From contig OW804098.1 in NCBI GenBank assembly GCA_942159475.1, positions 119,127,374 through 119,191,373 on the forward strand: a stretch of DNA of 64,000 nucleotides, read 5' to 3'. This document shows, piece by piece, positions 28,826 to 54,826 of the stretch. Position 1 is the first letter of the stretch. Each line of letters starts with the position of its first letter. Origin of the DNA: Sthenelais limicola. Taxonomy: Eukaryota > Annelida > Polychaeta > Phyllodocida > Sigalionidae. Made by a program: the position numbers and the translations under genes. Under the pieces are notes generated by a model. That model was given only the letters and a program-made list of their open reading frames with translations. It was not told the origin of the DNA and made no database searches.

Positions 28826-28864
28826 GTTCCTTCACCTCTTTGTGTAGGCGTTGGGTGGGTGGGA

Positions 28865-29140: not shown

Positions 29141-29143
29141 AAC

Positions 29144-33160: not shown

Positions 33161-33298
33161 AATCACTGGCCTTGAAAATCGAGAGAGGCCGGGGAGCCAG
33201 GCGCAGCAGGGGTACATAGGTTAGGCCATTCCATTGTGGTGGAGAAGAGGGGTGGCCGGTGTCCTGAGAAATGACCAATCATTTGCAATGATTGACAC
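33161..33298 (-). repeat. Ngaro copy 2 direct repeat A1
   Basis: The 5' terminal repeat of the minus-strand element, ending exactly at the satellite junction. Confidence 0.95.
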
Positions 33299-34764
33299 AT
33301 AGATCTAAGCCTCAATATGTGTCTCTATGGTAGAAACTACTCACTGTATGTATAGATCTATGCCTCAATATGTGTCTCTATGGTAGAAACTACTCATTGT
33401 ATGTATAGATCTATGCCTCAATATGTGTCTCTATGGTACAAACACTGTATGTATAGATCTATGCCTCAATATGTGTCTCTATGGTAGAAACTACTCACTG
33501 TATGTATAGATCTATGCCTCAATATGTCTCTATGGTAGAAACTACTCACTGTATGTATAGATCTATGCCTCAATATGTGTCTCTATGGTAGAAACTACAC
33601 ACTGTATGTATAGATCTATGCCTCAATATGTGTCTCTATGGTAGAAACTACTCATTGTATGTATAGATCTAAGCCTCAATATGTGTCTCTATGGTAGAAA
33701 CTACTCACTGTATGTATAGATCTATGCCTCAATATGTGTCTCTATTGTAGAAACTACTCACTGTATGTATAGATCTATGCCTCAATATGTGTCTCTATGG
33801 TACAAACTACTCACTGTATGTATAGATCTATACCTCAATATGTGTCTCTATGGTAGAAACTACTCATTGTATGTATAGATCTATGCCTCAATATGTGTCT
33901 CTATGGTAGAAACTAGTCATTGTATGTATAGATCTATGCCTCAATATGTGTCTCTATGGTAGAAACTACTGACTGTATGTATAGATCTATGCCTCAATAT
34001 GTGTCTCTATGGTAGAAACACTGTATGTATAGATCTATGCCTCAATATGTGTCTCTATGGTAGAAACTACTCACTGTATGTATAGATCTATGCCTCAATT
34101 TGTGTCTCTATGGTAGAAACTACTCACTGTATGTATAGATCTATGCCTCAATATGTGTCTCTATGGTAGAAACTACTCACTGTATGTATAGATCTATGCC
34201 TCAATATGTCTCTCTATGGTACAAACTACTCACTGTATGTATAGATCTATACCTCAATATGTGTCTCTATGGTAGAAACTACTCACTGTATGTATAGATC
34301 TATGCCTCAATATGTGTCTCTATGGTAGAAACTACTCACTGTATGTATAGATCTATGCCTCAATATGTGTCCCTATGGTAGAAACTACTCACTGTATGTA
34401 TAGACCTATGCCTCAATATGTGTCTCTATGGTAGAAACTACTCACTGTATGTATAGATCTATGCCTCAATATGTGTCTCTATGGTAGAAACTACTCACTG
34501 TATGTATAGATCTATGCCTCAATATGTGTCTCTATGGTAGAAACTACTCACTGTATGTATAGATCTATGCCTCAATATGTCTCTCTATGGTAGAAACTAC
34601 TCACTGTATGTATAGATCTATGCCTCAATATGTGTCTCTATGGTAGAAACTACTCACTGTATGTATAGATCTATGCCTCAATATGTGTCTCTATGGTAGA
34701 AACTACTCACTGTATGTATAGATCTATGCCTCAATATGTGTCTCTATGGTAGAAACACTGTATG
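33299..34764 (+). repeat. 53-bp satellite array, block 3
   Basis: About 27 copies, same orientation, with several short monomers lacking TACTC (GAAACACTG). It is directly continuous with block 2 across the Ngaro insertion. Confidence 0.98.
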
Positions 34765-34977
34765 ATTTGTTAGTATGTTTGCACTGGCAACAGGTTCTAA
34801 CTCATTATTTCTTTGGGGATGTAGAAATATAATACTTTTTTATTTTTTTATTTTTTCTTTATTTTATCGGAGAACTGATTTTGAGTTTTTTCCGAATCAA
34901 CAAAACTGCAGCATTAGCTGGCAGTTCTGCATTGTTTTGTGCCGTAGGAATGAAAATGGGGTATAAATCTATCAATT

Positions 34978-37242
34978 TCAGCTGAGTTTAGATGAAACTA
35001 ACATATTACTGATATTTGGGTTTCTTCTGTATCCAAAGACTAGCTCATCTCTAAAATGTCCACGATATAAGTTTTGCAGGTTTTGGTATGTGTTTTTAAC
35101 AATTTCGGTGATTTTTGTGGAGGTTGCATTATATATTGTGACAAAGGCAATAGTTCCCATTTCTGTCAATTTTATGTTCATTCCATTAGGTTCGACAGTG
35201 TTGAGTGCCTGTATCCATTTCCCTTCAATTTGTAATCTTTTTTTATGGTTTTTTTCGTCTGAGCCTTGTTCTAATATTTGTTCTATTGGGTAAATTACCA
35301 TATTTTCTTCTGCAGTATGGAATATATCATTGAAATGTTCAGCAACTGGTTTTTTCTGTTCAGACCGAATATCATGAAGGTGGCCTTGTAACCTCTGACG
35401 TAATGAATTTGAGGTTTCCCCTACATAGTATTCTTTGCATTTAATGCATTCAATGATGTAGATGATATTTTTGGAATTACATGTTATTTTGCCGATAATG
35501 GGGTAAGACAGTTGGCCATGTTGGATTTCTGATGTCTGTTTGAGCCATAGACAACATTCACATCGTGGTTTGCCACACTTGAGGGATGCCCCATAGGGCC
35601 ATTCCTCTCCTGTGATGTAGTTTAGTTTATAAAGGGTTTCTGCTTTGATTTTTCTAAGAAATCTGGCCGAATAATGCCTTTTCTTTCTGAGGGTCTTGAA
35701 GAGTATAGAGCAAGCTTCTTCGAAATCAGGGGTGTTGTTGCAAATTTTATGGAATCGCGTTATTTGTGATTTTAGAATACCTCTAAATGTATGACGGGGA
35801 TGGAATGATTCTTTGTGTAATAGTTCATGGGTGTCAGTGGGTTTGAAATATACTTTTGTGTCAAGAATCTCTTCGTTTTCATATCTTGATCCTTTGAATA
35901 TTGTAACATCAAGGAAATCTACTCTTTTGGCATTGATTGTGTGTTTTAGTTTGATTGAAGGACTGTGGTTGTTCAAGAGCTCGAGAAATTCTAGAAATTC
36001 TTGCTCTGAGTGTGTCCAAACAAGGAAGATGTCGTCCAGAAATCTATAATATACTAGGGGAAGTTTATCTGCTTTTTCCAGTACTTCTTCCTCAAATTGA
36101 GCCATATATATGTTTGCGTAATTTGGAGCAAATTTCTTTCCCATGGCTGTGCCTGAAATCTGTAAATACCATTCATCATCGAACTGAAAGTCATTATTTT
36201 TTAGAGAGAGTTCTAATAGGTCTAGGATAGCTTCATCTGGTCTGAGTACTTTAGGGTGTTTCCTGAAGATGTTTTCTATAGAAGTAAGGCCATCGTCTAT
36301 TGGTATGTTGGTGTAAAGGGAGTCAACATCTAAGGTTATCAGTAAGGAGTTTGCGGGAACTTTTTGTTCTTGCAATTTTTCCAGAAAATCCCAAGTGTCT
36401 TTTATGTAGGAAGGATGAATGGTGGCCAGTGGTTTCAGAAAATGGTCAATGTATTCCGATACTCTATATGATTCACTATTACAGTCTGAAATTATGGGCC
36501 TTCCAGGAGGCATTCTGTTGGGAATCGTCCATTTATCTAGATCTTTGTGGATTTTTGGTAAGAGGTAGAACAGTCGTGGTCTTGGATTATCTGGTGGTTT
36601 TAGGTAATTTATCTGCTTTTGTTTTAGATAGAGGTTCCCTCGACCTAATTGGGTAAGAATTTCATTAATTTTCTTGGCTGTTTCAGGATAAATAGGTTTG
36701 TCTATTTTTGTGTAAAATTTGGAATCATTTAGCTGTCTTTTTGCTTCTTTTATGTAGTCAGATTTTCTCATTATGACTGTTGCTGACCCTTTGTCTGCTT
36801 TTTTGATTACCAAGTGGTTTTTGCCTCTTAGGCTTCGTAATGCTCCAATTTGGTTTCTTGGCAGATTGGGTTTGTTTTTCTGAATCGGGGTATCTTTTAT
36901 TGATTTTGTCATGTCTTGCAAAGTTTGTTGGATCTCGTCCGGAATGAATTTCTCAGGTGGAGACCATGAAGATTTTTCAACAAAGGGTAGTTTTTCATAT
37001 TTTGAGTTCTTATAGAACTGTTTATAAAAGTATTGGATTTTGATTTTCCTTGAGAAGTTATCAACATCAGTCATTATTTTGTCCTTGTCTGTAAACTTAG
37101 GTGTTGGGACGAAATTTAGGCCCTTTGCCAAAATATCTATTTCCTCTGGTTTTAATTCTTCATCAGATAGGTTGATGATACTAGAGCCTAATGTAAGTTG
37201 TCTTTGTGTTTCAGGTTCAATAGTGCCTTTCTGACGTTTCAG
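34978..37242 (-). CDS. Penelope-like reverse transcriptase with GIY-YIG endonuclease (ORF2)
   Basis: Open from the -1 frameshift point at 37242; there is no ATG until about 37074, so expression as an ORF1-ORF2 fusion (about 1376 residues) is likely. Counting from the TTG at 37131: ITLDVDSLYTNIP (motif A, about 268-277), GTAMGKKFAPNYANIYM (motif B, about 327), YYRFLDDIFLVW (FLDD, about 364) and a Cys cluster CGKPRCECC (about 519). The GIY-YIG nuclease is IIYIIECIKCKEYYVGET (about 556) with the family Arg region LRQRLQGH. Penelope RTs are the telomerase-related class; GIY-YIG cuts the target DNA. Confidence 0.93.
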   Translation of the reverse strand: MKRQKGTIEPETQRQLTLGSSIINLSDEELKPEEIDILAKGLNFVPTPKFTDKDKIMTDVDNFSRKIKIQYFYKQFYKNSKYEKLPFVEKSSWSPPEKFIPDEIQQTLQDMTKSIKDTPIQKNKPNLPRNQIGALRSLRGKNHLVIKKADKGSATVIMRKSDYIKEAKRQLNDSKFYTKIDKPIYPETAKKINEILTQLGRGNLYLKQKQINYLKPPDNPRPRLFYLLPKIHKDLDKWTIPNRMPPGRPIISDCNSESYRVSEYIDHFLKPLATIHPSYIKDTWDFLEKLQEQKVPANSLLITLDVDSLYTNIPIDDGLTSIENIFRKHPKVLRPDEAILDLLELSLKNNDFQFDDEWYLQISGTAMGKKFAPNYANIYMAQFEEEVLEKADKLPLVYYRFLDDIFLVWTHSEQEFLEFLELLNNHSPSIKLKHTINAKRVDFLDVTIFKGSRYENEEILDTKVYFKPTDTHELLHKESFHPRHTFRGILKSQITRFHKICNNTPDFEEACSILFKTLRKKRHYSARFLRKIKAETLYKLNYITGEEWPYGASLKCGKPRCECCLWLKQTSEIQHGQLSYPIIGKITCNSKNIIYIIECIKCKEYYVGETSNSLRQRLQGHLHDIRSEQKKPVAEHFNDIFHTAEENMVIYPIEQILEQGSDEKNHKKRLQIEGKWIQALNTVEPNGMNIKLTEMGTIAFVTIYNATSTKITEIVKNTYQNLQNLYRGHFRDELVFGYRRNPNISNMLVSSKLS

Positions 37243-39107
37243 TTTAAAAGACCAATGTGATGGAGCCAGTGGTTTAAGAGGTAGTTGGCAGTTTCCTCTG
37301 TCCAGTGAACCTGGTCTTTTGGTTTGAGTTTGAATTTCGAACTCTCTATGCCAGGTAAGAGGTCTATAATTTTAGATCTCTGGATTCCTTCAGTTATACA
37401 AGATAGGTTTGAATTTTGAGTTTGTGAGAGTACCTGCTGGTCCCATTGGGGCAAAACGAACCACAGTTTGGCATTAGGGAATGCTCTCTCAGCCTGATTT
37501 ACCATCCGTTTGAATTCTGGTACTACTGTTTTGGTTGGATGGTTGTCCCGGTCATTGATACCTACACTAATAATAACCGAATCCGGGTTTTGTCTGAGCT
37601 TGGTAGCCTTTCGAAAGAGTTCCGTCATATGTTGGAATTTTGCACCTGGATAACTCTGGATTTCCAGGTTCTCTACCCTTGATTTAGAGATTACAGACAG
37701 GTTAGAGTCGCCTATAATCAGGGTTTTTTCCGAAAGTGGAGTCAACTGCCAATCTTTTTTTTTGTGAGCTGTGTTTTTGGCTCTGTTTGGAATAACCTCC
37801 TTTAGTGGATTTGGTGATGATGGAGGTGAAGATGTTAGGTCAATTGGCCGAATCTGACCTAAGGTGGCCGAAATTGGTGATATGGGTGAGCCCTGGATAG
37901 AAGGAGGGCGTGATCCCCTGGAGAAATTTGAGGGGCTGTTTTGTGGTGTAGTGAGTATGCTTTGACGGAGGGACATCAACAGTTTGCCAAATGTGTTGAT
38001 GCCTTTATTGAATTTGCCTCCTGTGCCCCAATAGGGGTCTGGAACTGTGTGGATCAATTCCGATCCCTTTGATTTGATCAGTTCCTGCCTAAAGGTGTGA
38101 TTTTGGGCGAATTTTAAATGCAGCAGGTCTGACATAAGATTACGCCGAATTGAATTCCAGCTGCCGGCCTTCAGGTGTTTAGTCTGAGCTTTTGCTTCTA
38201 CGGCCGTTTTTGAGTCCAGAACAGCTTGGACGATCCCCTGTTTGTCAAAATGGACCGCCTTCCTATATTGGTATGCATGTTCCAAGGATCTGAAAGTCAT
38301 GCCATCCAATTCAAAATCAGCAGGGTAGAAGTTGGACAAGGGGTCTAAATGTCCTTTCACTACCCTTTCCTTTACTAAAGCAGGCCCTTTTGGTTGAACT
38401 GGGCTGGTTTTTGGTGTTGAGGGTTTTGGGGTTAAGCCCCTAGAATTTGGAGTGGTCAAAAGTGGTGGGGTTAGGCCCAATGATTTGGAAGAGGTTGAAG
38501 GTGGTGGGGTGAAGCCCCGTGATTTCGAAGAATTTGAAGGTGGTGGGGTGGACCCCCTTGATTTGGAAGAGTTTGAAGGTTGTGGGGTTAAGCCCCTGGA
38601 TTGGAAAGAAGTTGAGGGTGGTGGGGTTAGGCCCCTTGATTTTGGAGTGTTTGATGCACTGGCAGTGGCCTGTGCATAGGTCTGAAGATGACCAACCCTG
38701 TTTTCCAAAGTGGGTGGTCCTGGTGGCGCCCCCTGTTGTTTTGAAGGGGCACTTTCCATTTCTGGGGTTTTAGCCAAATTCCCCATAATTCGTTGAAAAT
38801 TATCCAAAATTGGCTGATCGAGCTTTGCCCTGAAGTTTTTACGGGCCCAAGAGATAGCCAGATGTTGAGCCCTTTTCATTTCCATAGGGTCAACCTGCAT
38901 TAGGGAGAGTTTGGTCTGAATTTCCTCAATCTGTCTCCCATAATGTTCACAGAGGGTGGACGATGTTGTCCGAATCCACTCTGTGTTGTGATTTTGAAGA
39001 GCCTGCATTAGGTTTTGAGAGGGAATAGCAGGCTTGAAGAACTGATTTAGTTCTTTTAACTTTTTCTGGAAGCTTTTAGTCAAATTGCCTTCCATTTGAT
39101 TTTGCAT
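37239..39107 (-). CDS. Penelope element ORF1: NADAR domain plus SGNH hydrolase domain
   Basis: 622 residues. Residues 1-130 are helical and charged (possible coiled coil). Residues 155-235 are tandem Pro/Ser/Thr-rich repeats of about 16 residues (SKSRGxTPPPSxSS). Residues 248-385 are a NADAR/YbiA-like domain: HLDPLSNFYPADFELDG, FRSLEHAYQYRKA, LHLKFAQN, PYWGTGGKFNKG and NTFGKLLMSLR. Residues 455-617 are an SGNH/GDSL-type hydrolase with all blocks: IIGDSNLS (nucleophile Ser), SYPGAK (Gly), VGINDRD (Asn) and DQVHWT (Asp-x-x-His). NADAR enzymes hydrolyse N-glycosidic ADP-ribose from guanine; SGNH enzymes are esterases found in ORF1 of some LINEs. The substrates here are unknown. Confidence 0.88.
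   Translation of the reverse strand: MQNQMEGNLTKSFQKKLKELNQFFKPAIPSQNLMQALQNHNTEWIRTTSSTLCEHYGRQIEEIQTKLSLMQVDPMEMKRAQHLAISWARKNFRAKLDQPILDNFQRIMGNLAKTPEMESAPSKQQGAPPGPPTLENRVGHLQTYAQATASASNTPKSRGLTPPPSTSFQSRGLTPQPSNSSKSRGSTPPPSNSSKSRGFTPPPSTSSKSLGLTPPLLTTPNSRGLTPKPSTPKTSPVQPKGPALVKERVVKGHLDPLSNFYPADFELDGMTFRSLEHAYQYRKAVHFDKQGIVQAVLDSKTAVEAKAQTKHLKAGSWNSIRRNLMSDLLHLKFAQNHTFRQELIKSKGSELIHTVPDPYWGTGGKFNKGINTFGKLLMSLRQSILTTPQNSPSNFSRGSRPPSIQGSPISPISATLGQIRPIDLTSSPPSSPNPLKEVIPNRAKNTAHKKKDWQLTPLSEKTLIIGDSNLSVISKSRVENLEIQSYPGAKFQHMTELFRKATKLRQNPDSVIISVGINDRDNHPTKTVVPEFKRMVNQAERAFPNAKLWFVLPQWDQQVLSQTQNSNLSCITEGIQRSKIIDLLPGIESSKFKLKPKDQVHWTEETANYLLNHWLHHIGLLN
37242..37248 (-). promoter_or_regulatory. 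-1 ribosomal frameshift site T TTA AAC at ORF1 stop of the Penelope-like element
   Basis: ORF1 ends CTT TTA AAC TGA. The heptamer T TTA AAC is in the correct phase and lies directly before the stop. A -1 slip continues CTG AAA CGT CAG into ORF2, which then has 37 open codons before its first possible near-cognate start (TTG at 37131). A short CTGA/TCAG hairpin follows immediately; no pseudoknot was evident by eye. Confidence 0.8.
38440..38680 (-). repeat. Coding minisatellite (about 48-bp unit) in Penelope ORF1
   Basis: Five or so imperfect units encode SRGLTPPPSTS-like repeats. All units keep the frame, forming a flexible linker before the NADAR domain. Confidence 0.75.
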
Positions 39108-39139
39108 AATTTTCTCATGGTGTAGACACTGGATAATTC

Positions 39140-41219
39140 AGATCTATGGTAGAAACTACTCACTGTATGTATGTCTCTATGGTAGAAACTACTCACTGTA
39201 TGTATAGATCTATGCCTCAATATGTGTCTCTATGGTAGAAACTACTCACTGTATGTATAGATCTATGCCTCAATATGTGTCTCTATGGTAGAAACTACTC
39301 ACTGTATGTATAGATCTATGCCTCAATATGTGTCTCTATGGTAGAAACTACTTACTGTATGTATAGATCTATGCCGCAATATGTGTCTCTATGGTAGAAA
39401 CATTGTATGTATAGATCTATGCCTCAATATGTGTCTCTATGGTAGAAATTACTTACTGTATGTATAGATCTATGCCTCAATATGTGTCTCTATGGTAGAA
39501 ACTACTCACTGTATGTATAGATCTATGCCTCAATATGTGTCTCTATGGTAGAAACTACTCACTGTATGTATAGATCTATGCCTCAATATGTGTCTCTCTA
39601 TGGTAGAAACTACTCACTGTATGTATAGATCTATGCCTCAATATGTGTCTCTATGGTAGAAACTACTTACTGTATGTATAGATCTATGCCTCAATATGTG
39701 TCTCTATGGTAGAAACTACTCACTGTATGTATAGATCTATGCCTCAATATGTGTCTCTATGGTAGAAACTACTCACTGTATGTATAGATCTATGCCTCAA
39801 TATGTCTCTCTATGGTAGAAACTACTCACTGTATGTATAGATCTATGCCTCAATATGTGTCTCTATGGTAGAAACTACTCACTGTATGTATAGATCTATG
39901 CCTCAATATGTGTCACTATGGTAGAAACTACTCACTGTATGTATAGATCTATGCCTCAATATGTGTCTCTATGGTAGAAACTACTCACTGTATGTATAGA
40001 TCTATGCCTCAATATGTGTCTCTATGGTAGAAACTACTCACTGTATGTATAGATCTATGCCTCAATATGTGTCTCTATGGTAGAAACTACTGACTGTATG
40101 TATAGATCTATGCCTCAATATGTGTCTCTATGGTAGAAACTACTCACTGTATGTATAGATCTATGCCTCAATATGTGTCCCTATGGTAGAAACTACTCAT
40201 TGTATGTATAGATCTATGCCTCAATATGTGTCTCTATGGTAGAAACTACTCACTGTATGTATAGATCTATGCCTCAATATGTGTCTCTATGGTAGAAACT
40301 ACTTACTGTATGTATAGATCTATGCCCCAATATGTATGTATAGATCTATGCCTCAATATGTGTCTCTATGGTAGAAACTAGTCACTGTATGTATAGATCT
40401 ATGCCTCAATATGTCTCTCTATGGTAGAAACTACTCACTGTATGTATAGATCTATGCCTCAATATGTGCCTCTATGGTAGAAACTACTCACTGTATGTAT
40501 AGATCTATGCCTCAATATGTGTCTCTATGGTAGAAACTACTCACTGTATGTATAGATCTATGCCTCAATATGTGTCTCTATGGTAGAAACTACTCACTGT
40601 ATGTATAGATCTAAGCCTCAATATGTGTCTCTATGGTAGAAACTACTCACTGTATGTATAGATCTATGCCTCAATATGTGTCTCTATGGTAGAAACTACT
40701 CACTGTATGTATAGATCTATGCCTCAATATGTGTCTCTATGGTAGAAACTACTCACTGTATGTATAGATCTATGCCTCAATATGTGCCTCTATGGTAGAA
40801 ACTACTCACTGTATGTATAGATCTATGCCTCAATATGTGTCTCTATGGTAGAAACTACTCACTGTATGTATAGATCTATGCCTCAATATGTGTCTCTATG
40901 GTAGAAACTACTCACTGTATGTATAGATCTAAGCCTCAATATGTGTCTCTATGGTAGAAACTACTCACTGTATGTATAGATCTATGCCCCAATATGTGTC
41001 TCTATGGTAGAAACTACTCACTGTATGTATAGATCTATGCCTCAATATGTGTCTCTATGGTAGAAACTACTCACTGTATGTATAGATCTAAGCCTCAATA
41101 TGTGTCTCTATGGTAGAAACTACTCACTGTATGTATAGATCTATGCCTCAATATGTGTCTCTATGGTAGAAACTACTTACTGTATGTATAGATCTATGCC
41201 CCAATATGTATGTATAGAT
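39140..41219 (+). repeat. 53-bp satellite array, block 4
   Basis: About 39 copies, same orientation. The first monomers next to the Penelope element are deleted between CTATG repeats. A short variant (GCCCCAATATGTATGTATAG) occurs at 40324 and again at 41199, about 875 bp apart, and the region 40150-41200 resembles 45960-46990. Confidence 0.97.
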
Positions 41220-44200
41220 ATCTGTAATATCATTGTCTTAAAGACAAATAGAGATTAGGGACGATGGGGGATGCAAAGATTATCTTGGGGTTATTGGGAA
41301 CAAGCACTTCACTCTGGAGTGCCAATAAGGGACAGAGGGACAATGTATGATTCGGACGAGACAGATAATGATATTGATATGTTTAAGAAACTTAAGGGGA
41401 TAAAGTTAGTAACCTGGAATGTAAGAAGTTTCCTTCAAAAGAAAGACCAAATTGACCATTTTATGAGGGAATCCGAACCACATCTAGTGGTATTCCAAGA
41501 GTCATGGCTCAGTAAAAGTGTTCCCGATAGTAAATTGGAAATACAAGGCTATAAGATGTGCAGATGGGATAGAAAACAGAAAAGGAGAGGGGGCGGCCTA
41601 ATCTCATATTCTCATTCATCTCTGAATATTGAAACCGACAAATACAGAGAACTGTGGGTATCTGATGGGAACATTGAGATTCAGATTTTCGAACTCACAA
41701 AGAAATTTATTAAAGATAAGGTAGTCCTCCACGTTTACAGACCTCCACAGGGAAACTTGCAGAAAGCCCTTGAGGTAATCGACTCAGTCTTAGAAAATAT
41801 TGACACCACCAAAGAACTTTTCATGCTTGGCGATTTTAACTATGATGCCAAAAATATTGAAGAGGGCACCTCAACAGGAGCTGAGAGGTTCAAAAGCATT
41901 CTCAGCAAATATAACTTGCAACAAATAATAAAAGATCAGACAAGAATAAGTAAAACATCATCGTCTACCATTGATCACATTTATACTAATTGTAAAATTA
42001 CCAACAAAAATGGGACTCTAAACATTAATATAAGTGACCACCTCCCCACCTATGTTCAAATAAAAAAAGAAAGAACTAGATATAGGACTGAAACGTTTAC
42101 TGCAAGGAATACGAAGAGGCTGGATATTCCAATACTGCGTGAAATACTCTGCGACCTAGACTGGTCTGCACTGTATGAAACCAGGGACGTTGAGAAGGCG
42201 TGGAGGATTATCATTGATAACATAACCAGAATATTAGACAATATGTGTCCTGTCAAAACATTCAAACAGGTGAGGGTTATACCGGAATGGTATGACAAAA
42301 GCATAATCGATAGCGGGAAGGAGAGAGATAAGGCGTTCCGGTTGGCAAAGAACACGGGGAGGGATCCTGAGTGGCAGAGGGCTAGAAAACTGAGGGGGAA
42401 AGTAAATACACAAATAAAAAACGCCAAAGATAAGTACTTGAGAAACAAAATTGACGAGAATATGAATGACTCGCACAAAATATGGGAAATATTAAAGCCC
42501 CTAGTAACAGAGGGAAAAGGTAATCACAACAGTGAAATATCAATTACCAAAGGGAAGGAGATATTAAAAGGGACCGAAGCGGCCGAAGCAATTAATGATT
42601 ACTTTGTAAACATTGGACCCACCTTGGCAAGTAACATAAAAAACAGTGATGAAGAAATAAACCACTCAGAGGGAAACACTGAAAGGGGTAACCCCAATAA
42701 ATTCTCTATTATGCCCATTGAAAAATCCTCAGTAGAAGCTGCTTTACTAAAGGTGGGTAACTATAAAGCCTCGGGGATCGATCTTATGCCAAACAGGATC
42801 CTAAAACCTTGCATGAAGGCACTTAGTGGCCAATTCTCATATTTATATAACCTGTCAATAGAAAGCTCAATTGTACCTAGTGAATTTAAGAAAGCCAATG
42901 TAACCCCCCTGTACAAAGAGGGAAGCAAGCAATCACCTGGTAACTACCGACCAATATCATGTATTAATCTACCAGCGAAAATACTCGAGAGCTGTATCCA
43001 CACACAACTATCAAATTACTTGGAGTCAAACAACTTACTAACCAAGAACCAATTCGGGTTTAGGAGAGGAAAATCCATTGTTGAAGCCCATGACAATCTA
43101 CTAAATAGAGTATACAACAATTTAAACAGTAAAAGAGCAACCGACCTAATATTTCTAGATTTCAAAAAAGCATTTGATACCGTTAACCATAAATTGCTCC
43201 TGCAGAAACTTCTAAATTACGGAATAGACCAGAAATCATACCAATGGTTCAATAACTACCTTTCAGACAGACGTCAGAGGGTAGTGCTGAGAGGTGGATC
43301 CTCCTCCCTTAAACCCGTCACATGTGGTGTCCCCCAGGGTACCTCCTTGGGGCCACTACTATTCAGTGTATACATTAATGATTTACCTGAGGTCGTTAAA
43401 ACAAGCAAAATCCAGTTATTTGCAGACGACACTATATTATATGATGATAGAGCCCTTGGGGCCAATAAGATTGAATCACTCCAAACAGATCTCGATAGCA
43501 TAGTAAAATGGTGTGCTAATAATAAAATCTCGCTTAACATCTCGAAATGCAAAAGCCTAACCATCAGGGCTAAGATTGACCATAAAAACGTGGTGCAATA
43601 TAACATCGATGATCAAATAATGGGTGATGTTGAAGCATACAAATACCTCGGAATTGAACTTGATAGGCAGCTTAACTATAAGAGATTCATGTGTAAAAAA
43701 ATCAACACTGTTAGATCTAGGGTGGGGGCCATGTCCAAACTGTATGGAGTGTGTAGTAAGAAAACTTTATTACTCATTTATAAAACTATGATATTGCCAA
43801 TAATTGATTACGGCGATGTTTTTTATGGTTCTACGACCCAAGCATACCTTCAAAAGCTCCAGACACTGCAAAACTCTGCGCTAAAAATAATATTGCACCT
43901 ACCAAAGTACACCAGTACAAAAGAAATACACAAAGAGTTAAAAATTATCTCGCTAAAAACTAGGCGCGAAGCACATGGTTTGGAAAGGGCCTTCATAAGA
44001 TCACTAGATGACAAAAATACTGATAATAGGGCCATAGGACTCAGGAGCCTAAAGAAAGGTAGGAAACTGAAGGTGCCCACTCCAAAAAACGAAATCTTTC
44101 GGAGATCGTACCTCTATTCCCTGCCCAACTTATGGAACTCTCTTCCTAGTGAAGTCCAATTATTACCAAACAGGAAAGAGTTCAGAGGCTACCTAAAAAA

Positions 44201-44897
44201 TAGATACCCTCTTGACTTCGATCCCCACCTTAAGGAACCTCAGACAAGCTGAGGAGACATATCAGATGATATCACGAACTGATCAACATTCATTGTATGA
44301 CTTGTTGACAGTAAAATAGGGGGCGGGGAACTATAATCTATTTAGGAGTGTAAATCCTTTCTTGCAACAAGATCGATATAACGATACCATGGGAGGGGGG
44401 ATAGAAACCTACACTGTTTTATTTTATTGTTTTGTTCTGTAAATATATGTTATAGTAGCGGCGCTCCGCCACTACAAGTACTGACTGTGAGAGAACTCAG
44501 ATGTTTTACTGTTTACTGTTCTTGATGTTTTAGGCCTCCAGTACAGGAGACCAATGTACAGGAGAAACCAAGCTTTGTAATATCATTGTGTTTTACTCCA
44601 GGATGCTGTAGTAGGAAAATTTTAATCACTGTACTAGACAACCACATTAAACTAAACTACATTAATGTCCGTTATCACAAAACAATTGACACTTTAATTA
44701 CAAAACGGACCATAAACAGTCTCAAACATCATGACTGACCATTGAACACTATTTTACTAATATCAGTTAAAACATCAGCTATGTTCAACAAATGAGATTT
44801 GCCCGGAAGACCTGCGTGCCACTTGGCTTGCAGACGGTATATTCGTTTCTGATTGTATGTATTGTCTCTTCAGAATAAAAATCCTATATATATATAT
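41220..44897 (+). mobile_element. CR1/L2-type LINE, copy 2, in satellite
   Basis: Single-ORF LINE between satellite blocks 4 and 5. The left junction is in TGTATAGAT; the right end is a (TA)n tail (about 44885-44897) followed by ATATCTATGCCTC satellite. Its 5' region contains ACTTCACTCTGGAGTGCC, shared with the LINE at 8344. Confidence 0.88.
41271..44252 (+). CDS. LINE copy 2 endonuclease-reverse transcriptase
   Basis: Up to 993 codons; the ATG at 41344 (MYDSDETDNDID) is an alternative start. Endonuclease: LVTWNVRSF, VFQESWLS, GDFNYDA and SDHLPTYV. RT: FLDFKKAFDTVNH (about residue 626), GVPQGTSLGPLLFSVYIND and LFADDTILY (FADD about 715). C-terminal block LPIIDYGDVFYG. No stops or shifts, so it is a candidate active copy. 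It is related to but clearly diverged from the LINE at 8460. Confidence 0.95.
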   Translation: MQRLSWGYWEQALHSGVPIRDRGTMYDSDETDNDIDMFKKLKGIKLVTWNVRSFLQKKDQIDHFMRESEPHLVVFQESWLSKSVPDSKLEIQGYKMCRWDRKQKRRGGGLISYSHSSLNIETDKYRELWVSDGNIEIQIFELTKKFIKDKVVLHVYRPPQGNLQKALEVIDSVLENIDTTKELFMLGDFNYDAKNIEEGTSTGAERFKSILSKYNLQQIIKDQTRISKTSSSTIDHIYTNCKITNKNGTLNINISDHLPTYVQIKKERTRYRTETFTARNTKRLDIPILREILCDLDWSALYETRDVEKAWRIIIDNITRILDNMCPVKTFKQVRVIPEWYDKSIIDSGKERDKAFRLAKNTGRDPEWQRARKLRGKVNTQIKNAKDKYLRNKIDENMNDSHKIWEILKPLVTEGKGNHNSEISITKGKEILKGTEAAEAINDYFVNIGPTLASNIKNSDEEINHSEGNTERGNPNKFSIMPIEKSSVEAALLKVGNYKASGIDLMPNRILKPCMKALSGQFSYLYNLSIESSIVPSEFKKANVTPLYKEGSKQSPGNYRPISCINLPAKILESCIHTQLSNYLESNNLLTKNQFGFRRGKSIVEAHDNLLNRVYNNLNSKRATDLIFLDFKKAFDTVNHKLLLQKLLNYGIDQKSYQWFNNYLSDRRQRVVLRGGSSSLKPVTCGVPQGTSLGPLLFSVYINDLPEVVKTSKIQLFADDTILYDDRALGANKIESLQTDLDSIVKWCANNKISLNISKCKSLTIRAKIDHKNVVQYNIDDQIMGDVEAYKYLGIELDRQLNYKRFMCKKINTVRSRVGAMSKLYGVCSKKTLLLIYKTMILPIIDYGDVFYGSTTQAYLQKLQTLQNSALKIILHLPKYTSTKEIHKELKIISLKTRREAHGLERAFIRSLDDKNTDNRAIGLRSLKKGRKLKVPTPKNEIFRRSYLYSLPNLWNSLPSEVQLLPNRKEFRGYLKNRYPLDFDPHLKEPQTS

Positions 44898-47800
44898 ATG
44901 TATATATCTATGCCTCAATATGTGTCTTTATGGTAGAAACTACTCATTGTATGTATAGATCTATGCCTCAATATGTGTCTCTATGGTAGAAACTACTCAC
45001 TGTATGTATAGATCTATGCCTCAATATGTGTCTCTATGGTAGAAACTACTCACTGTATGTATAGATCTATGCCTCAATATGTGTCTCTATGGTAGAAACT
45101 ACTCACTGTATGTATAGATCTATGCCTCAATATGTGTCTCTATGGTAGAAACTACTCACTGTATGTATAGATCTATGCCTCAATATGTGTCTCTATGGTA
45201 GAAACTAGTCATTGTATGTATAGATCTATGCCTCAATATGTGTCTCTATGGTAAAAACTACTCACTGTATGTATAGATCTATGCCTCAATATGTGTCTCT
45301 ATGGTAGAAACTACTTACTGTATGTATAGATCTATGCCTCAATATGTGTCTCTATGGTAGAAACTACTCACTGTATGTATAGATCTATGCCTCAATATGT
45401 GTCTCTATGGTAGAAACTACTCACTGTATGTATAGATCTATGCCTCAATATGTGTCTCTATGGTAGAAACTACTCACTGTATGTATAGATCTATGCCTCA
45501 ATATGTGTCTCTATGGTAGAAACTACTCACTGTATGTATAGATCTATGCCTCAATATGTGTCTCTATGGTAGAAACTACTCACTGTATGTATAGATCTAT
45601 GCCTCAATATGTGTCTCTATGGTAGAAACTACTCACTGTATGTATAGATCTATGCCTCAATATGTGTCTCTATGGTAGAAACTACTCACTGTATGTATAG
45701 ATCTATGCCTCAATATGTGTCTCTATGGTAGAAACTACTCACTGTATGTATAGATCTATGCCTCAATATGTGTCTCTATGGTAGAAACTAGTCACTGTAT
45801 GTATAGATATATGCCTCAATATGTGTCTCTATGGTAGAAACTAGTCACTGTGTGTATAGATCTATGCCTCAATATGTGTCTCTATGGTAGAAACTACTCA
45901 CTGTATGTATAGATCTATGCCTCAATATGTGTCTCTATGGTAGAAACTACTCACTGTATGTATAGATCTAAGCCTCAATATGTGTCCCTATGGTAGAAAC
46001 TACTCATTGTATGTATAGATCTATGCCTCAATATGTGTCTCTATGGTAGAAACTACTCACTGTATGTATAGATCTATGCCTCAATATGTGTCTCTATGGT
46101 AGAAACTACTTACTGTATGTATAGATCTATGCCCCAATATGTATGTATAGATCTATGCCTCAATATGTGTCTCTATGGTAGAAACTAGTCACTGTATGTA
46201 TAGATCTATGCCTCAATATGTCTCTCTATGGTAGAAACTACTCACTGTATGTATAGATCTATGCCTCAATATGTGCCTCTATGGTAGAAACTACTCACTG
46301 TATGTATAGATCTATGCCTCAATATGTGTCTCTATGGTAGAAACTACTCACTGTATGTATAGATCTATGCCTCAATATGTGTCTCTATGGTAGAAACTAC
46401 TCACTGTATGTATAGATCTAAGCCTCAATATGTGTCTCTATGGAAGAAACTACTCACTGTATGTATAGATCTATGCCTCAATATGTGTCTCTATGGTAGA
46501 AACTACTCACTGTATGTATAGATCTATGCCTCAATATGTGTCTCTATGGTAGAAACTACTCACTGTATGTATAGATCTATGCCTCAATATGTGCCTCTAT
46601 GGTAGAAACTACTCACTGTATGTATAGATCTATGCCTCAATATGTGTCTCTATGGTAGAAACTACTCACTGTATGTATAGATCTATGCCTCAATATGTGT
46701 CTCTATGGTAGAAACTACTCACTGTATGTATAGATCTAAGCCTCAATATGTGTCTCTATGGTAGAAACTACTCACTGTATGTATAGATCTATGCCTCAAT
46801 ATGTGTCTCTATGGTAGAAACTACTCACTGTATGTATAGATCTATGCCTCAATATGTGTCTCTATGGTAGAAACTACTCACTGTATGTATAGATCTAAGC
46901 CTCAATATGTGTCTCTATGGTAGAAACTACTCACTGTATGTATATATCTATGCCTCAATATGTGTCTCTATGGTAGAAACTACTCATTGTATGTATAGAT
47001 CTATGCCTCAATATGTGTCTCTATGGTAGAAACTACTCACTGTATGTATAGATCTATGCCTCAATATGTGTCTCTATGGTAGAAACTACTCACTGTATGT
47101 ATAGATCTATGCCTCAATATGTGTCTCTATGGTAGAAACTACTCACTGTATGTATAGATCTATGCCTCAATATGTGTCTCTATGGTAGAAACTACTCACT
47201 GTATGTATAGATCTATGCCTCAATATGTGTCTCTATGGTAGAAACTAGTCATTGTATGTATAGATCTATGCCTCAATATGTGTCTCTATGGTAAAAACTA
47301 CTCACTGTATGTATAGATCTATGCCTCAATATGTGTCTCTATGGTAGAAACTACTTACTGTATGTATAGATCTATGCCTCAATATGTGTCTCTATGGTAG
47401 AAACTACTCACTGTATGTATAGATCTATGCCTCAATATGTGTCTCTATGGTAGAAACTACTCACTGTATGTATAGATCTATGCCTCAATATGTGTCTCTA
47501 TGGTAGAAACTACTCACTGTATGTATAGATCTATGCCTCAATATGTGTCTCTATGGTAGAAACTACTCACTGTATGTATAGATCTATGCCTCAATATGTG
47601 TCTCTATGGTAGAAACTACTCACTGTATGTATAGATCTATGCCTCAATATGTGTCTCTATGGTAGAAACTACTCACTGTATGTATAGATCTATGCCTCAA
47701 TATGTGTCTCTATGGTAGAAACTACTCACTGTATGTATAGATCTATGCCTCAATATGTGTCTCTATGGTAGAAACTACTCACTGTATGTATAGATCTATG

Positions 47801-49154
47801 CCTCAATATGTGTCTCTATGGTAGAAACTAGTCACTGTATGTATAGATATATGCCTCAATATGTGTCTCTATGGTAGAAACTAGTCACTGTGTGTATAGA
47901 TCTATGCCTCAATATGTGTCTCTATGGTAGAAACTACTCACTGTATGTATAGATCTATGCCTCAATATGTGTCTCTATGGTAGAAACTACTCACTGTATG
48001 TATAGATCTAAGCCTCAATATGTGTCTCTATGGTAGAAACTACTCATTGTATGTATAGATCTATGCCTCAATATGTGTCTCTATGGTAGAAACTACCCAC
48101 TGTATGTATAGATCTATGCCTCAATATGTGTCTCTATGGTAGAAACTACTCACTGTATGTATAGATCTATGCCTCAATATGTGTCTCTATGGTACAACTA
48201 TTCACTGTATGTATAGATCTATGCCTCAATATGTCTCTCTATGGTAGAAACTACTCACTGTATGTATAGATCTATGCCTCAATATGTGTCTCTATGGTAG
48301 AAACTACTTACTGTATGTATAGATCTATGCCTCAATATGTGTCTCTATGGTAGAAACTAGTCACTGTATGTATAGATCTATGCCTCAATATGTGTCTCTA
48401 TGGTAGAAACTACTCACTGTATGTATAGATCTATGCCTCAATATGTGTCTCTATGGTAGAAACACTGTATGTATAGATCTATGCCTCAATATGTGTCTCT
48501 ATGGTAGAAACTAGTCACTGTATGTATAGATCTATGCCTCAATATGTCTCTCTATGGTACAAACTACTCACTGTATGTATAGATCTATGCCTCAATATGT
48601 CTCTATGGTACAAACTACTCACTGTATGTATAGATCTATGCCTCAATATGTGTCTCTATGGTAGAAACTACTCACTGTATGTATAGATGTATGCCTCAAT
48701 ATGTCTCTCTATGGTAGAAACTACTCACTGTATGTATAGATCTATGCCTCAATATGTCTCTATGGTACAAACTACTCACTGTATGTATAGATCTATGCCT
48801 CAATATGTGTCTCTATGGTAGAAACTACTCATTGTATGTATAGATCTATGCCTCAATATGTGTCTTTATGGTAGAAACTACTCACTGTATGTATAGATCT
48901 ATGCCTCAATATGTGTCTCTATGGTAGAAATTACTCACTGTATGTATAGATCTATGCCTCAATATGTATGTATAGATCTATGCCTCAATATTTGTCTCTA
49001 TGGTAGAAACTACTCACTGTATGTATAGATCTATGCCTCAATATGTGTCTCTATGGTAGAAACTACTCACTGTATGTATAGATCTATGCCTCAATATGTG
49101 TCTCTATGGTAGAAACTACTCACTGTATGTATAGATCTATGCCTCAATATGTGC
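44898..49154 (+). repeat. 53-bp satellite array, block 5
   Basis: About 80 copies in the same orientation, ending abruptly at ATATGTG before CCATGAGATG. It contains many short monomers toward the right end (GAAACACTG, missing GTCT) and a large internal duplication. Confidence 0.98.
44900..48120 (+). repeat. 2040-bp offset duplication within satellite block 5
   Basis: The run of monomer variants from about 44900-46080 recurs at about 46940-48120 at an offset of exactly 2040 bp (for example GTAAAAACTA at 45251 and 47291; GATATATGCC and CTAGTCACTGTGTG near 45807/45843 and 47847/47883), with only a few differences. It indicates a recent unequal exchange or an assembly duplication. Confidence 0.88.
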
Positions 49155-50060
49155 CATGAGATGCCACATTTTCTTTGAAGCAGACTATGCAGAACAACTC
49201 AGATCTTTGCTTCCATATCCTACTTGCAATGATATCTGAAGTAACCCACATCTTTGATAAAATTGTATACTTTAGCCATCATATCACACATCTTTAATAT
49301 GTAACCTGATATTGGCTAACATACCTCAAATTTGTATCTATCGATTCCCTTTAAGGTGGTTATTATCATGATTATCACAATTTTATTCTCATTACGATGA
49401 TTGTTTTTACTCAAATGATCTGATTCATGAATTCAAACAAAGGATGAACCATATCTGAAAACATGCTTGTTTTGTTATAAAAGTAAAATGGAATATTTTG
49501 CTTCCTTTTAAGTTTTCTCTCAGCCTTTACAATATTACTGTTTTCATATTTTCTAACAAAGCCTTCGATAAGTGTACATTTCTTTCGTCTTAACTGAGGA
49601 AAACTAATTGCCATGACTAGCGGGGTTTAGTGGAGAAAGCATTGTAAGAAATATGCAATCAAGGATCAAAAAGCCCTCCTTTATATATTGAGAAAGAGCT
49701 ACATAGAATATTTCTTTTTAAACATAATTATTTACATATATGCAAGATTTTCTCTAAGTTTTCTCTAAGAGAGGGAGGTAAAATGGCGGCGGTAGCGGGA
49801 ACCTGCGTCAAGACGTTCTGTTGAAAAAGTCTCCACCAACATGGTAACCGGTCATCCTAGAGACATTTTTTATCGATCAAAGGAATTATAAACATTTGGA
49901 AAAGCCCTACCTGAAGTGTATGAGAGCTGATCCCATTTATTAATCCTTGATGATCAGTTTTTACGAACAGTGAGTGATATTAGAGTAACTTCCATTGAGT
50001 GTTTTGCCGCCAACGCTGTGTATGTAAACAACTAGAGCTGTCACTCTGTCACACTCTACT
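49155..50060. other. Unique AT-rich sequence right of the satellite locus
   Basis: No gene recognised. The last 300 bases (from AAAATGGCGGCGG at about 49780) may be the 5' UTR of the following LINE. Confidence 0.4.
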
Positions 50061-50855
50061 ATGAAAAGAGCTGTGGACGGTAACACGGGCATATCTCCTG
50101 GCAATAAGAAGATCAGCGATCATAAATCCGCCTCTCCTGTGGATTCAACTAGTATCTCCTCCTTAATCATGGGTGACTTGCCGATAGCCTCACCGTCTAA
50201 TAAAATTGTGGATGTGATGATGTGGAAGTTGAAGAAGAAGAACTCACAACGACCGAAACAGTCAGCAATCTAATTGTCGAGCACAACAATATGGTGGATG
50301 GGCTTGAGGAAAATAAGAAGATGTGCGGAACTATAGCTGATACTTTGACCGACGAAACCCTCAGAAATCGTGAGCTGAAAGAATACACAGAAAGGTTAGA
50401 AAGACGTGTAAATGATTTAGAGCACAAATATGATCATTTGACATTCAAACTGAGCAAGCAAAAGCTGATTAATAACGAAGTCGACACGCGCCTGAAGGAG
50501 AAATGTATTGTTTTCAATGGGGTGCTAGTCAAGGCACACGAAGATATCGATACAGTATGTACTAGAATCATAAGAATGGTTCTTCCTCACTTCGAGGACA
50601 ACTCCTTTGACGACATCTACCAAATAATCTCAAAAAAACAGAACAACCGTCGACCACACCCTATTGTTGTAAGATTTAAGTTCTTAAAGGACAAGAAGGA
50701 CTTCATGACAAAGAAGGGACTTTTGTTTAATGGCAAGAACTTTCCCCCTGAAAGGTTCCCCGCTATCAAATTTTGGTCCTTCGACGATGACATTAACCCC
50801 GAAGTGCGCAGAAATAGAAGCGTTCTAAAACAAATAGCTAAGAAAGCAGTAGAAA

Positions 50856-53135
50856 GGGGCCATCCACAAATGACGTCATGCCCTAGGGGGGGAGGGGGGG
50901 TTGAGTTTTCATGACAAGGTATGACAATGGGGGGAGGGGGGGTCACCTCATGTATGACATCATGTTTTTATATTTTTGATAAAAAGACTACCATAACGGG
51001 GAAACTTGTGCTCTAAGTAAAATTCATTTGAAATACCCCTTAGAATAACAGGTTACTGGACATGCTTCTCTGGCCTCTATATCTAGATATATCCAGATTA
51101 TTCTAGTTTTCTTGCAAATCAAACTTCAACAATGGCACTGTGTGAAAACATCCCTGAGGAATATTGCATTTTTTCTATAATAATTTAAAAAATGTATTGG
51201 CCTTAAACTGAATTAAAAAAAAAAATCAATAGGAACTGGTGTCATGTAACTTGAGTGGCAGCCTTACACTGCCTTTATTAAATAAATAATATATAACAAA
51301 ATCTCTAGCGGCATGTCTGTTGGTATAGGAAATGTCTGCTAATATGGATTCCAGCCATTCATCTTTACGCACCATTGGTGTTGGAGGTCATGCAATTTTT
51401 TCCTGATATAGACCCATGCATTTTACACAGAGGTAGCAATAGAATGACTGGTACCACACCCATTGCCCGACCAGTCCCAATGCCAAGGACGGTATTTCCA
51501 TGTCCTCAAGATCGTTCTTGAGGCAGTTGACATGTCCTGCTACAACCAAGTCCAGTAGCGTGTACACATCACCTCTTAATCTTTTAAAGTGAAGGGTAGG
51601 CAAGTCAAGTTCCTTATACATATCTAAGGACTTTGTCACTCACCTTTGAAGGTTCTTCAGAGTATTGATATTAACCATGTACTCAGGGTTCTGAACCCCT
51701 CATGGAAACCAGTTCATTATATATGGATACATTTTAAACTAATCGATGCAGCTTAGATAGACCTTTCATGGGACATATACTTTCATATAGCTAAAACACA
51801 AAATGGCCACCCTATGGGCAGAAATCCACCCACATAACCCACTTTTATGCAGAGGAAAAAATAATTTTGTCAAATAGTCAATAATTTATTCTGAATACAA
51901 ACATTGAATAATTGCATATCAGAAAAACTGTTTCAATGAGATATGAATCATTAAAAAAAGGTCACGTTGGGGAAGTTTAAACGTTGCCAACCTAACGACA
52001 TTCATTATAAAAATGTGTCTACACAATTATTGATTATCAAATGAAACTTTGTCAATTTAAAGCATCTAATAAGATGTTCATGTCATAGAATTTTTAATTT
52101 CAACCTAACATTTTTTCGGTTATTTTTGGACTGATTTAAGCTGGGGTTGGCCCAGAGGCACTAATGGGCTGGCAACATAAAACATTGGAAGAGAACAATT
52201 TCAGTTGAGATAATGAAATTGGATATAATGAGAATAATGTATTTTTGCTACAAGAATACCAAAATATTGATTTTGAGAGAAATCAAGAATATTTGACAAG
52301 GATTAGAACAAGGCCATGCCCTTAAACTTTGGGTGTCAAAGAGTTAAGATGATTTTCAAATAAAGTGCCTTGAAATAGAAAAATTTTGATCTTATTCTAT
52401 AGCTTGAAACGTTAGCTTAATGATACGATAATAAACAAAAATATTGAAATTTAAAAAATAACCCTCATTACCTCTACAATATTTCTATCCAAAGGCATTG
52501 GGGTGGCAACGTTAGAAAATGCAGTTTTTAAAATTAGTGTGCCCAATTTTTGTTATGAACCCTTCATTATATGTACAATGATATCTGTAAATGGCAAGTA
52601 GTTTCAATGCATTTAAAATTTTAGCAAAAAATACCCTCTGTGTACCTGATTGTTGAGAACTGACCATATATATTATGAAGAGAAGTGGTCATGGAACTGA
52701 CCCCTGTGGGACTATACAGACTTGATCTTGTGTAAAAGGCTTTTATGTGATATGTTCCATTACTACATCCTAAACTATAGCTTCCATAACTGTGCACAAT
52801 ATGCAAATCAGGCTTAATGCGTTTGGGTATTATACCACTGCCAAACCTGCACATGTGCAACTAATTAGACCCACGTCCATTGGCAGGCAGAAAACTAACC
52901 TTAACATAGTGGTTGATAATCTTGCCTTATTTGTTGGACACAAAGCAAAATTCATTGCTGGTATATGTTGGCAAAATTTGTTGGGCTGGGGGGGGGGGGG
53001 GGTGCTGCAAACATGACGTCATTTTTTATCAGTTTTAAGGGGGGGTCTGGCACAGTGTGACGAAACATGACATGGGGGGGAGGGGGGGGGTCAAAAATGG
53101 CCCAAAAAAGCATGACGTCATTTGTGGATGGCCCC
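50856..53135. mobile_element. 2.3-kb terminal-inverted-repeat DNA element inside LINE ORF1
   Basis: Ends are inverted repeats of about 26 bp (starting GGGGCCATCCACAAATGACG on both strands: 50856-50881 and 53110-53135), followed inside by G-rich tracts on both sides. Flanking AAA(G) is duplicated; removing the element with one copy restores the ORF1 frame (GTA GAA AGT AAC). No transposase ORF is recognised, so it is non-autonomous. The superfamily is not assigned; the TGACGTCA core in the TIR is notable. Confidence 0.85.
51388..51690 (-). pseudogene. Fragment of a LINE RT C-terminus inside the TIR element
   Basis: The minus-strand translation reads NTLKNLQR, stop, VTKSL and KELDLPTLHFKRLRGDVYTL, the typical post-RT block 'L..L.LP.L..RR.RGD'. 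It is a degraded, truncated remnant. Confidence 0.55.
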
Positions 53136-54116
53136 AAAGTAACCTTGATGTTTACGCAAAAGCAAAAGGAGACAAGATAATGTTCAAGGGTTCTAACTAC
53201 TCGCAAACACAACTGGAACTGCTTCCTGAAACTCTCCAACCAGGCTCACTGAAGGTTATCAAGGTGGGAGGCACTATTGCATATCAGGGCCACCTAGCTT
53301 GGCCATCAAATCTATTCCAATGCCCGATAAGACTGGAGAATATACCATTTAGAAGTGTCGAACACGCCTAATTCTACTACAAAGCGCTGAAAACGGGTAA
53401 CACAGTAGCAAGTTGCAAAATCGCAAAAATGGGTGATCCTTATGAAATTAAGGAATTCGGAGACAAACTCTCGTCTGACGACGAGTGGGAATTAGCACAA
53501 GAAGGGTATATGAGGACCATAATAAAGTCCAAATTTACTCAAAACAAGGAGCTACGTACCTTGCTATTGTCAACTGGTACCATTGAACTCGTCGAGGCCA
53601 CTCATGATACAAAGTGGGGCTGTGGCGTCTATCTCGGCAATGTTCATCTCCGCACCCGTACCTGGGAAGGATTGAATACACAAGGTAAAATCGTAATGGC
53701 AGTGAGAGACGAGATGAGAGAGACCTACAAGCAAGAACTGTCCAAGGTTATCCTAATGTCTCCACCTCCTCCAGCTATTTTAAGTTATCCCCCTTCTCGC
53801 AGGATAAAATAAAAGGTGTACTCTCTTCTCGACGTTCCAGACATCCTAGACTAGACGAGTTATCCGCGTCTATGCATGAGAAAAGACTGGAAAATATTGA
53901 AGCGACCCTCATTGGTAAGACCAAAAGCATAACGGACTCAGCCACTACCAGGCGAGAAGGCTTTAAAACCCTACTTCGACCGAGCAAACTGAACTTTACA
54001 GTGTCAAGCACGCCACATGGACAAACGGGTACGCGTAAAGTCCGTAAACTGAACAGTGACCTGCACAAATCTCTAAATGAATCAATGCATGGTCTAGCTG
54101 CAGCTACAAACTCGTA

Positions 54117-54826
54117 ACTGAATCCTAATATAAGTTCACTTATACCTACTTGCTCACTGTCATTCCATTTTTTGTAATCCATTCAGCAATTTCAGTCGGT
54201 TTTTCTTGATACCTGATGCTGTTGTTTACCTTGGTAGCTGACACACGTGTATCCATGCCGGAAGTCTCAGACCGGAAGCTCAGTCGGCAGAAAATGGCTA
54301 AAATGTTTCGAATCGCTAACAACGACATACTGTATTATAAATAATTAGAGTGTTACTCTAAATAACCTACCTGTAAATGATAAATCCTTGAAATGGTATG
54401 AGTGGTATTTTTCCTACTTATGTTATAATATTCTATGCAGAACACGATATAGTTCCAAAATGGCGGACCCCACGTCGAACCGCGTCAGTTTGAGCTAAGG
54501 TAAATGTAAACTTCTGGCTTATATGTTTCAGTAAGAAATGCTGGACTTGTATAAAGTGTATATTTTGTTTGTTTCTCTTGATGACTGCCTGTGAACTATG
54601 TTTGACTAATTCTCAGTCCTTTGCTTAGGCGAAATTCTTTTGCTAAGATAGTCGTACCACGCATACACTATGCCGCTAAGCCCAGTAGGGCCCCGAGTGT
54701 TTTTATCTTATACCATTTCAAATACAGATTGTACACTTGACCTTCGAATATTGGTCCGAGTATTACAACCCATGTGGGTGTTGAGAGTTTGCCACGAATT
54801 GAATCAGACCTTGTACCTTGAGAGAA
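54117..54826. other. LINE ORF1-ORF2 spacer
   Basis: About 700 bp without a supported ORF; it includes AAAATGGCGGACC at about 54458. It probably belongs to the LINE. Confidence 0.45.

Follow-up and report, generated by a model that had tools for sequence, protein, structure and literature searches.

NADAR is a family of enzyme domains known to remove ADP-ribose from guanine. NADAR domains have been reported from open reading frame 1 (ORF1) of Tx1 long interspersed nuclear elements (LINEs) in the oyster Crassostrea gigas and from Ectocarpus Gypsy elements, with a proposed role in processing of the RNA intermediate (PMC12477816). SGNH esterases have been described in Penelope elements of the Neptune-like kind from fish and molluscs (PMC5408684, PMC3905857). 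The roles of NADAR in animals have been described as unclear (PMC11125620). A stretch of 64,000 nt from Sthenelais limicola (contig OW804098.1), referred to here as the window, contains both a Penelope-like element (PLE) and an old LINE, and each encodes a NADAR domain in its ORF1. We give a probability of about 0.5 to the reading that in both elements the domain is a working YbiA-fold module of the ORF1 protein (ORF1p), which would hydrolyse ADP-ribose from the RNA, cDNA or ribonucleoprotein (RNP) of the element.

The identity of the two domains is nearly certain. Against Pfam NADAR PF08719 (curated cut-off 35.1 bits), PLE ORF1 scored 84.8 bits (E 1e-23, residues 266-394), the LINE fragment at 53372-53812 scored 81.9 bits (E 8.2e-23), and the LINE domain with its stop read through as X scored 92.0 bits. 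AlphaFold2 models and PDB matches assign both to the YbiA fold, the best PDB match being the ADP-ribose-bound NADAR 8bau. The best NCBIfam model, that of riboflavin intermediates N-glycosidase (cut-off 73.7), gave 84.7 for the PLE and 73.9 for the read-through LINE. A NADAR profile matched 3 of 1413 ORFs across the window, every one within the PLE or the old LINE; since this profile was built with both window domains included, the independent evidence is that from Pfam, phage NADARs and PDB. The lowest E value against the NADAR profile among 2000 residue shuffles of PLE ORF1 was 0.16, and a chance motif was ruled out by this control together with the Pfam scores. The sequence-only reading of this DNA had placed a NADAR before the reverse transcriptase (RT) in two unrelated element classes on the basis of motif blocks, which were recovered as follows: SNF at residue 268, SLEHA at 284 and WGTG at 370 of PLE ORF1, and SNLF at 53306, SVEHA at 53354, WGCG at 53615 and GLNTQGK at 53669 of the LINE. 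Both domains and both element classes were correctly named; the account needs correcting for a TAA stop and an insert in the LINE and for the 5' truncation of the PLE, and it did not mention the PLE SGNH esterase.

In the P. nicotianae NADAR, ADP-ribose is contacted by E43, K50 and E125; mutants of the equivalent residues in an E. coli NADAR lose activity or rescue, with E88A only mildly affected in vitro (PMC11543638). The E43 and K50 equivalents are kept in 24/24 aligned rows, both window domains included, so that the pocket residues, proposed earlier as a check, are not lost across related elements. The E125 slot holds His in 13/13 PLE NADARs (H363 in the window, codon 38049-38051) and Glu in 31/31 LINE NADARs, comprising the window LINE and 30 fetched from the same genome that are not all independent; Glu is also found in P0012 and P0016, two proteins related to PLE ORF1. 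In the models, the PLE strand SELIH ends with H363 and the LINE strand ELVE ends with E156. Given His in the one and the catalytic Glu in the other, the active-site types of PLE and LINE NADARs differ. In the profile alignment the PLE His pairs with the Glu of 8bau, while against YbiA, in which the loop is one residue longer, it pairs with the His next after the Glu; because these alignments differ, the slot is well assigned against 8bau and the LINEs and ambiguously against YbiA. T4 gp30.3 likewise aligns with His in this slot, phage gp30.3 NADARs have been described with His there, and a characterised phage NADAR kept activity (PMC11125620). By its residues, then, the PLE domain appears to be of the histidine (gp30.3) type in this slot and not of the YbiA-type Glu; the branch of T4 gp30.3 is very long, this row lacks other shared residues, and the likeness need not signify common descent.

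The PLE (34757..39142, minus strand) is 5'-truncated and inserted in a 53-bp satellite array. A 14-bp direct repeat, TCTATGGTAGAAAC, flanks it at 34743-34756 and 39143-39156, which fits a target-site duplication. The element starts inside ORF1, abutting the satellite, and 51 frame codons are absent from its ORF1, since other copies have 683-codon stop-to-stop frames; 632 codons remain open (37239..39137, minus strand, from ORF reading and own-genome copies). The 53-bp repeat was considered as a part of the PLE and rejected, none being present in 19 of 20 PLE loci fetched from the genome with flanks up to 1.5 kb. AlphaFold2 models ORF1 as three folded parts joined by linkers mostly at a predicted local distance difference test (pLDDT) value below 50. 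These are, all on the minus strand, an N-terminal five-helix domain (residues 2-122, 38772..39134; ten-residue blocks at pLDDT 86-96) that is conserved among relatives, the NADAR domain (residues 255-396, 37950..38375; Pfam, NCBIfam, PDB fold match, AlphaFold2 and motifs), and an SGNH/GDSL esterase domain (residues 454-627, 37257..37778; weak Pfam match, fold and motif residues). The esterase domain carries S478, G498, N528, D608 and H611, and S478, G498, N528 and H611 are invariant across a 13-row PLE alignment (A1). Its Pfam score of 25.7 bits lies below the cut-off of 32.9, which no PLE-family member reached among the window PLE ORF1 and the relatives scored; Pfam recognized SGNH weakly, at E 0.05, in 10/15 members. 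P0012, which stands outside the PLE family set, passed the cut-off with 33.8.

PLE ORF2 (34978..37371, minus strand) was identified by Pfam and alignment and encodes RT (RVT_1, E 1.3e-9), a Cys-rich stretch and, C-terminal to RT, a GIY-YIG endonuclease (E 8.1e-7). C599, C604, C607 and C631, between RT and GIY-YIG, are invariant in 11/11 aligned relatives, and cysteines in this position are a feature of Neptune-like PLEs (PMC3846280). Judged by these cysteines and by RT with a C-terminal GIY-YIG, the window element is probably a Neptune-type PLE. Neptune-type PLEs have a hammerhead ribozyme within terminal repeats; Rfam at gathering threshold gave no match in the window or in five PLE copies, which were taken with 1.5-kb flanks only. 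ORF2 lies in the -1 frame relative to ORF1, with no ATG ahead of its conserved start, and a T TTA AAC heptamer, a possible frameshift site, stands immediately 5' of the ORF1 stop (37242..37248, minus strand). The site is the same in 7/7 PLE copies looked at, and P0001, P0004, P0005, P0007, P0009, P0013 and P0014 likewise have LN as their last residues, following the SGNH part, suggesting that ORF2 may be expressed by -1 frameshifting. Against this stand the RNA downstream of the heptamer, which is not unusually folded (z -0.38), and an upstream Met in ORF2 of some PLE relatives.

A protein search with PLE ORF1 recovered 16 relatives. The N-domain and NADAR occur together in 13 proteins (window PLE ORF1, P0001-P0011 and P0013), with NADAR over the Pfam cut-off in 12 and, by alignment and motif, an SGNH part after NADAR in 12, P0011 stopping short of SGNH; P0014 is a fragment with SGNH alone. 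P0012 (PHD, SGNH, NADAR, zinc knuckle) and P0016 (358 aa, from a 601-kb contig, with motifs of both NADAR and SGNH) differ in domain order or make-up and were therefore not counted with the PLE set. In these two proteins the NADAR and SGNH hydrolases recur together in other settings. ORF1 and PLE RT matches fell on contigs of exactly equal size in at least 3 of the 16 (4610, 7140 and 8786), a lower bound since 120 of 2017 matches were used, and this ties these ORF1s to PLEs outside the S. limicola genome; with jittered sizes the mean was 0.27, and 3 or more were obtained in 39/20000 trials. From their shared N-domain, we infer that the remaining ORF1 relatives outside this genome belong to PLEs. 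P0006 and P0008 form the closest pair among four linked sets, at 49% for ORF1 and 73% for the ORF2 partners. Viral contig scans gave no relative for PLE ORF1, P0004, P0006, the LINE NADAR, the alignment A4, P0012 or the ORF2 alignment A5.

In the 1.13-Gb genome of S. limicola itself, a scan with PLE ORF1 gave 9329 first-look candidates, a figure that is not a copy number, of which 70 were scored. Sixteen stop-free matches (the window and 15 others) span all 632 codons at 98-100% identity, and the 15 others lie in 683-codon stop-to-stop frames. ORF2 sequence follows 3' of ORF1 in 20/20 fetched loci, in pieces at one of them (L066). Several PLE copies follow one another head to tail at intervals of 5.8-6.0 kb, including two runs with identical ORF1 DNA (L048-L050, C4:129381924-129395738; L052-L054, C3:16760526-16774027).

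The old LINE spans about 50204-57444 on the plus strand, and its ORF1 carries NADAR in the latter half. The N part of ORF1 (50204..50855, plus strand) resembles a coiled coil and an RRM by eye; tblastn aligns it at 21-25% identity with ORF1s of other LINEs in the genome, and Pfam gave no RRM match. ORF1 is split by an insert (50856..53135, no strand assigned) with 26-bp exact terminal inverted repeats; this insert is 2.28 kb long and has G-rich ends. Downstream of it, the NADAR domain (53258..53734, plus strand; Pfam, fold and model) is interrupted by an in-frame TAA at 53369-53371, and the probable C-terminal part of ORF1, which has no Pfam match, would continue in another frame (53689..54117, plus strand). 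Pieces of ORF2, comprising the endonuclease (EN) start, middle and RT (RVT_1), follow at 54803..57444 on the same strand (Pfam and ORF reading). Order, strand and spacing (54117 to 54803) link ORF1 to ORF2, a layout common to open relatives.

Such relatives are present in the same genome. A PF08719 scan gave 5561 first-look candidates, which again does not represent copy number, and 150 were scored; all 150 passed the Pfam cut-off, 101 of them in open frames 550 codons or longer and 86 in frames of 600 codons or longer. The best 30 LINE NADARs were fetched and have N-terminal parts, NADAR and a tail, LINE ORF1-like in appearance, with LINE EN/RT similarity within 1.5 kb of many, not all, of them and downstream in 7/7 loci read over 8 kb. 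Five of these seven loci (L040, L041, L042, L044 and L045) combine an open NADAR ORF1 (574-679 codons) with an open ORF2 (948-1002 codons) at a spacing of 589-1113 nt; ORF2 is broken at L043 and L046, and ORF1 is also split at L046. A protein search with the window LINE NADAR found no relative at E 0.001 among 829 candidates.

In the LINE pairs compared, NADAR is under purifying selection. The ratio of nonsynonymous to synonymous substitution rates (dN/dS) was 0.054 for L012-L022 (dS 1.03), and 0.079 for L020-L025 (dS 0.44) and 0.098 for L025-L019 (dS 0.46), the latter two pairs representing one family; values of 0.026 (L011-L023) and 0.072 (L017-L024) come from pairs saturated at dS 2.3 and 3.6. 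Across ORF1 of L012-L022, dN/dS was 0.051 in the N part, 0.054 in NADAR and 0.314 in the tail. Two young pairs gave 0.036 and 0.26 from very few changes. PLE copies are too similar for a dN/dS ratio, and of ten further distinct ORF1 sequences, nine encode a NADAR identical to that of the window copy.

Whether retrotransposons acquired NADAR once or twice was approached with a tree of 34 rows, among them the PLEs, P0012, P0016, 12 LINE rows (the window copy and 11 of the 30 fetched) and 7 phage or bacterial NADARs; RNA-virus, nucleocytoplasmic large DNA virus and named host NADARs are not among the rows, and T4 gp30.3, with a branch of 4.8-5.3, was left out of both topology-test trees. PLE rows form one clade (support 97/92), and a branch with support 97/96 separates the PLEs, P0012 and P0016 from the 12 LINE rows, which group with the 7 phage and bacterial rows. 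Two captures, as the sequence-only reading had cautiously proposed, are favoured by the differing active-site types and by approximately unbiased tests (p-AU), in which an exclusive PLE and LINE clade had 0.049 with 12 LINE rows and 0.026 with the window LINE alone. A single capture, in which NADAR was exchanged between LINE and PLE ORF1s and the active-site residue changed later, is the lesser possibility, though a substantial one: a clade of all 27 transposon-type rows was not rejected (p-AU 0.35), nor was one of PLE, window LINE, P0012 and P0016 (p-AU 0.226), the glutamate-type P0012 and P0016 lie on the PLE side of the tree, and ORF sharing among retroelement classes is documented (PMC5408684).

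The conservation of the pocket indicates that it is used and does not tell its substrate. Intact NADAR copies are probably catalytically active; that their substrate is nucleic-acid ADP-ribose has somewhat less than an even chance. ORF1p would accompany element RNA, and during reverse transcription its NADAR would reverse the action of host or stress-induced ADP-ribosyltransferases by hydrolysing ADP-ribose, most likely guanine-linked, from RNA, cDNA or RNP. In the PLE, a His-type NADAR would sit on mostly disordered linkers between the helical N-domain and the SGNH esterase, and ORF1p may thus bring two hydrolases to the RNP, NADAR being tethered beside the esterase; in the LINE, a Glu-type NADAR would sit behind the coiled-coil and RRM-like parts. 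Counter-defence as the reason the elements keep NADAR is doubtful. Slightly more doubtful is the wider proposal that animals, or this host at least, ADP-ribosylate guanine of RNA or cDNA against retrotransposons and that at least two classes carry erasers, Glu-type in LINE ORF1p and His-type with an esterase in Penelope ORF1p. Several observations weigh against ADP-ribose hydrolysis by both elements. E. coli YbiA removes riboflavin intermediates, and other substrates are possible. The PLE type departs at the catalytic slot, with the ambiguity against YbiA described above, and in the PLE copy L062 five residues of NADAR are replaced, W370R being among the changes by deduction. The P0003 NADAR is under the Pfam cut-off (31.4 vs 35.1 bits), and P0015 has the N-domain and SGNH without NADAR, so that some relatives manage without it. 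For the LINEs, dS was undefined in 9/18 within-group pairs, and two young pairs gave dN/dS of 0.46 and 0.74, as expected of copies in decay.

Among other roles, the domain might serve as a scaffold, binding RNA or processing partners, with a pocket that is structural or holds an unrelated ligand. The RNA processing proposed for transposon NADARs (PMC12477816) would agree with this, as may SNA-3, an essential nematode trans-splicing protein with three NADAR domains, in which mutants of the YbiA-type residues in NADAR 2 are sterile at 25 degrees, NADAR 3 mutants are larval lethal, and NADAR 1 is without these residues (PMC9303266). A pure scaffold would not need the pocket residues that both elements keep along with the fold, and we consider this role unlikely. 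Somewhat less probable again is hydrolysis of free ADP-ribose derivatives, cyclic ADP-ribose signals or reactive riboflavin-like intermediates in place of nucleic acids. Such functions have been proposed for phage NADARs (PMC9503650), and the riboflavin-intermediate model is passed by the PLE and barely by the read-through LINE; fusion into ORF1p, next to RT, points to a nearby macromolecule as the target, and a diffusible substrate would need no tether. That NADAR is a functionless passenger picked up by template switching is highly improbable, for while P0015 lacks the domain and some copies decay, dN/dS of NADAR is low and below that of the ORF1 tail in the compared pair, and the pocket residues are kept over PLE relatives at 24-48% identity.

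Should NADAR prove active, ADP-ribose erasers would be known from retrotransposon ORF1 proteins as well as from viruses and phages, and ADP-ribosylation of nucleic acids would be a candidate for one of the layers by which the host defends its genome. Transposon NADARs give the family a natural collection under selection, and this genome holds young, open, near-identical copies of both element kinds that can be tested directly at the bench.

Elsewhere in the window, arrays of the 53-bp satellite occupy 1-1642, 26329-28687, 33299-34756, 39140-41209 and 44897-49153 and are broken up by the PLE, a DIRS-like element and a LINE, placing several retroelement classes in one satellite. Tyrosine-recombinase retroelements with phage-integrase matches lie at 3316-7436, with a 374-bp tandem duplication at 5079-5834, and at 28688-33298, the second also matching RVT_1. 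A Helicase_C fragment at 14955-15509 is RecQ-like by eye.

The NADARs of DarTG1 antitoxin, E. coli YbiA and P. nicotianae (8bau) share with the window domains the fold and the E43 and K50 equivalents, and the LINE also keeps the E125-type Glu (PMC11543638, PMC11125620); here, however, the domain lies inside a transposon protein, and the PLE slot equivalent to E125 holds His. NADAR is also carried by polymerase-containing polyproteins of nidoviruses and other RNA viruses, where it has been proposed to counter host ADP-ribosylation (PMC9503650). Shared with the present elements are an RNA-based genome and the presence of NADAR in the same polyprotein as the polymerase, whereas the PLE and LINE are reverse-transcribing genomic elements; among the BFVD fold matches listed for the PLE model are nido-like replicases, a likeness of fold. 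SNA-3 is likewise an animal NADAR protein in an RNP, but is a host protein with three such domains (PMC9303266). The oyster Tx1 LINEs and Ectocarpus Gypsy are closest in carrying NADAR within a retrotransposon, the LINEs in ORF1, and the LINEs described here resemble Tx1 LINEs in layout, with an open NADAR ORF1 followed by an open EN-RT ORF2 at 5/7 loci. The statement that no system of this kind had been described therefore does not hold for LINEs and may hold for PLEs: the available part of PMC12477816 mentions no PLE with NADAR, SGNH partner or active-site typing, and no report of NADAR in a PLE was found in the literature searched, most subscription journals and bioRxiv preprints aside. With the SGNH-bearing Penelope elements the window PLE shares the esterase, to which it adds a NADAR. 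Thus, while NADAR in LINE ORF1 was already known, its position in a PLE between the helical N-domain and the SGNH esterase looks new.

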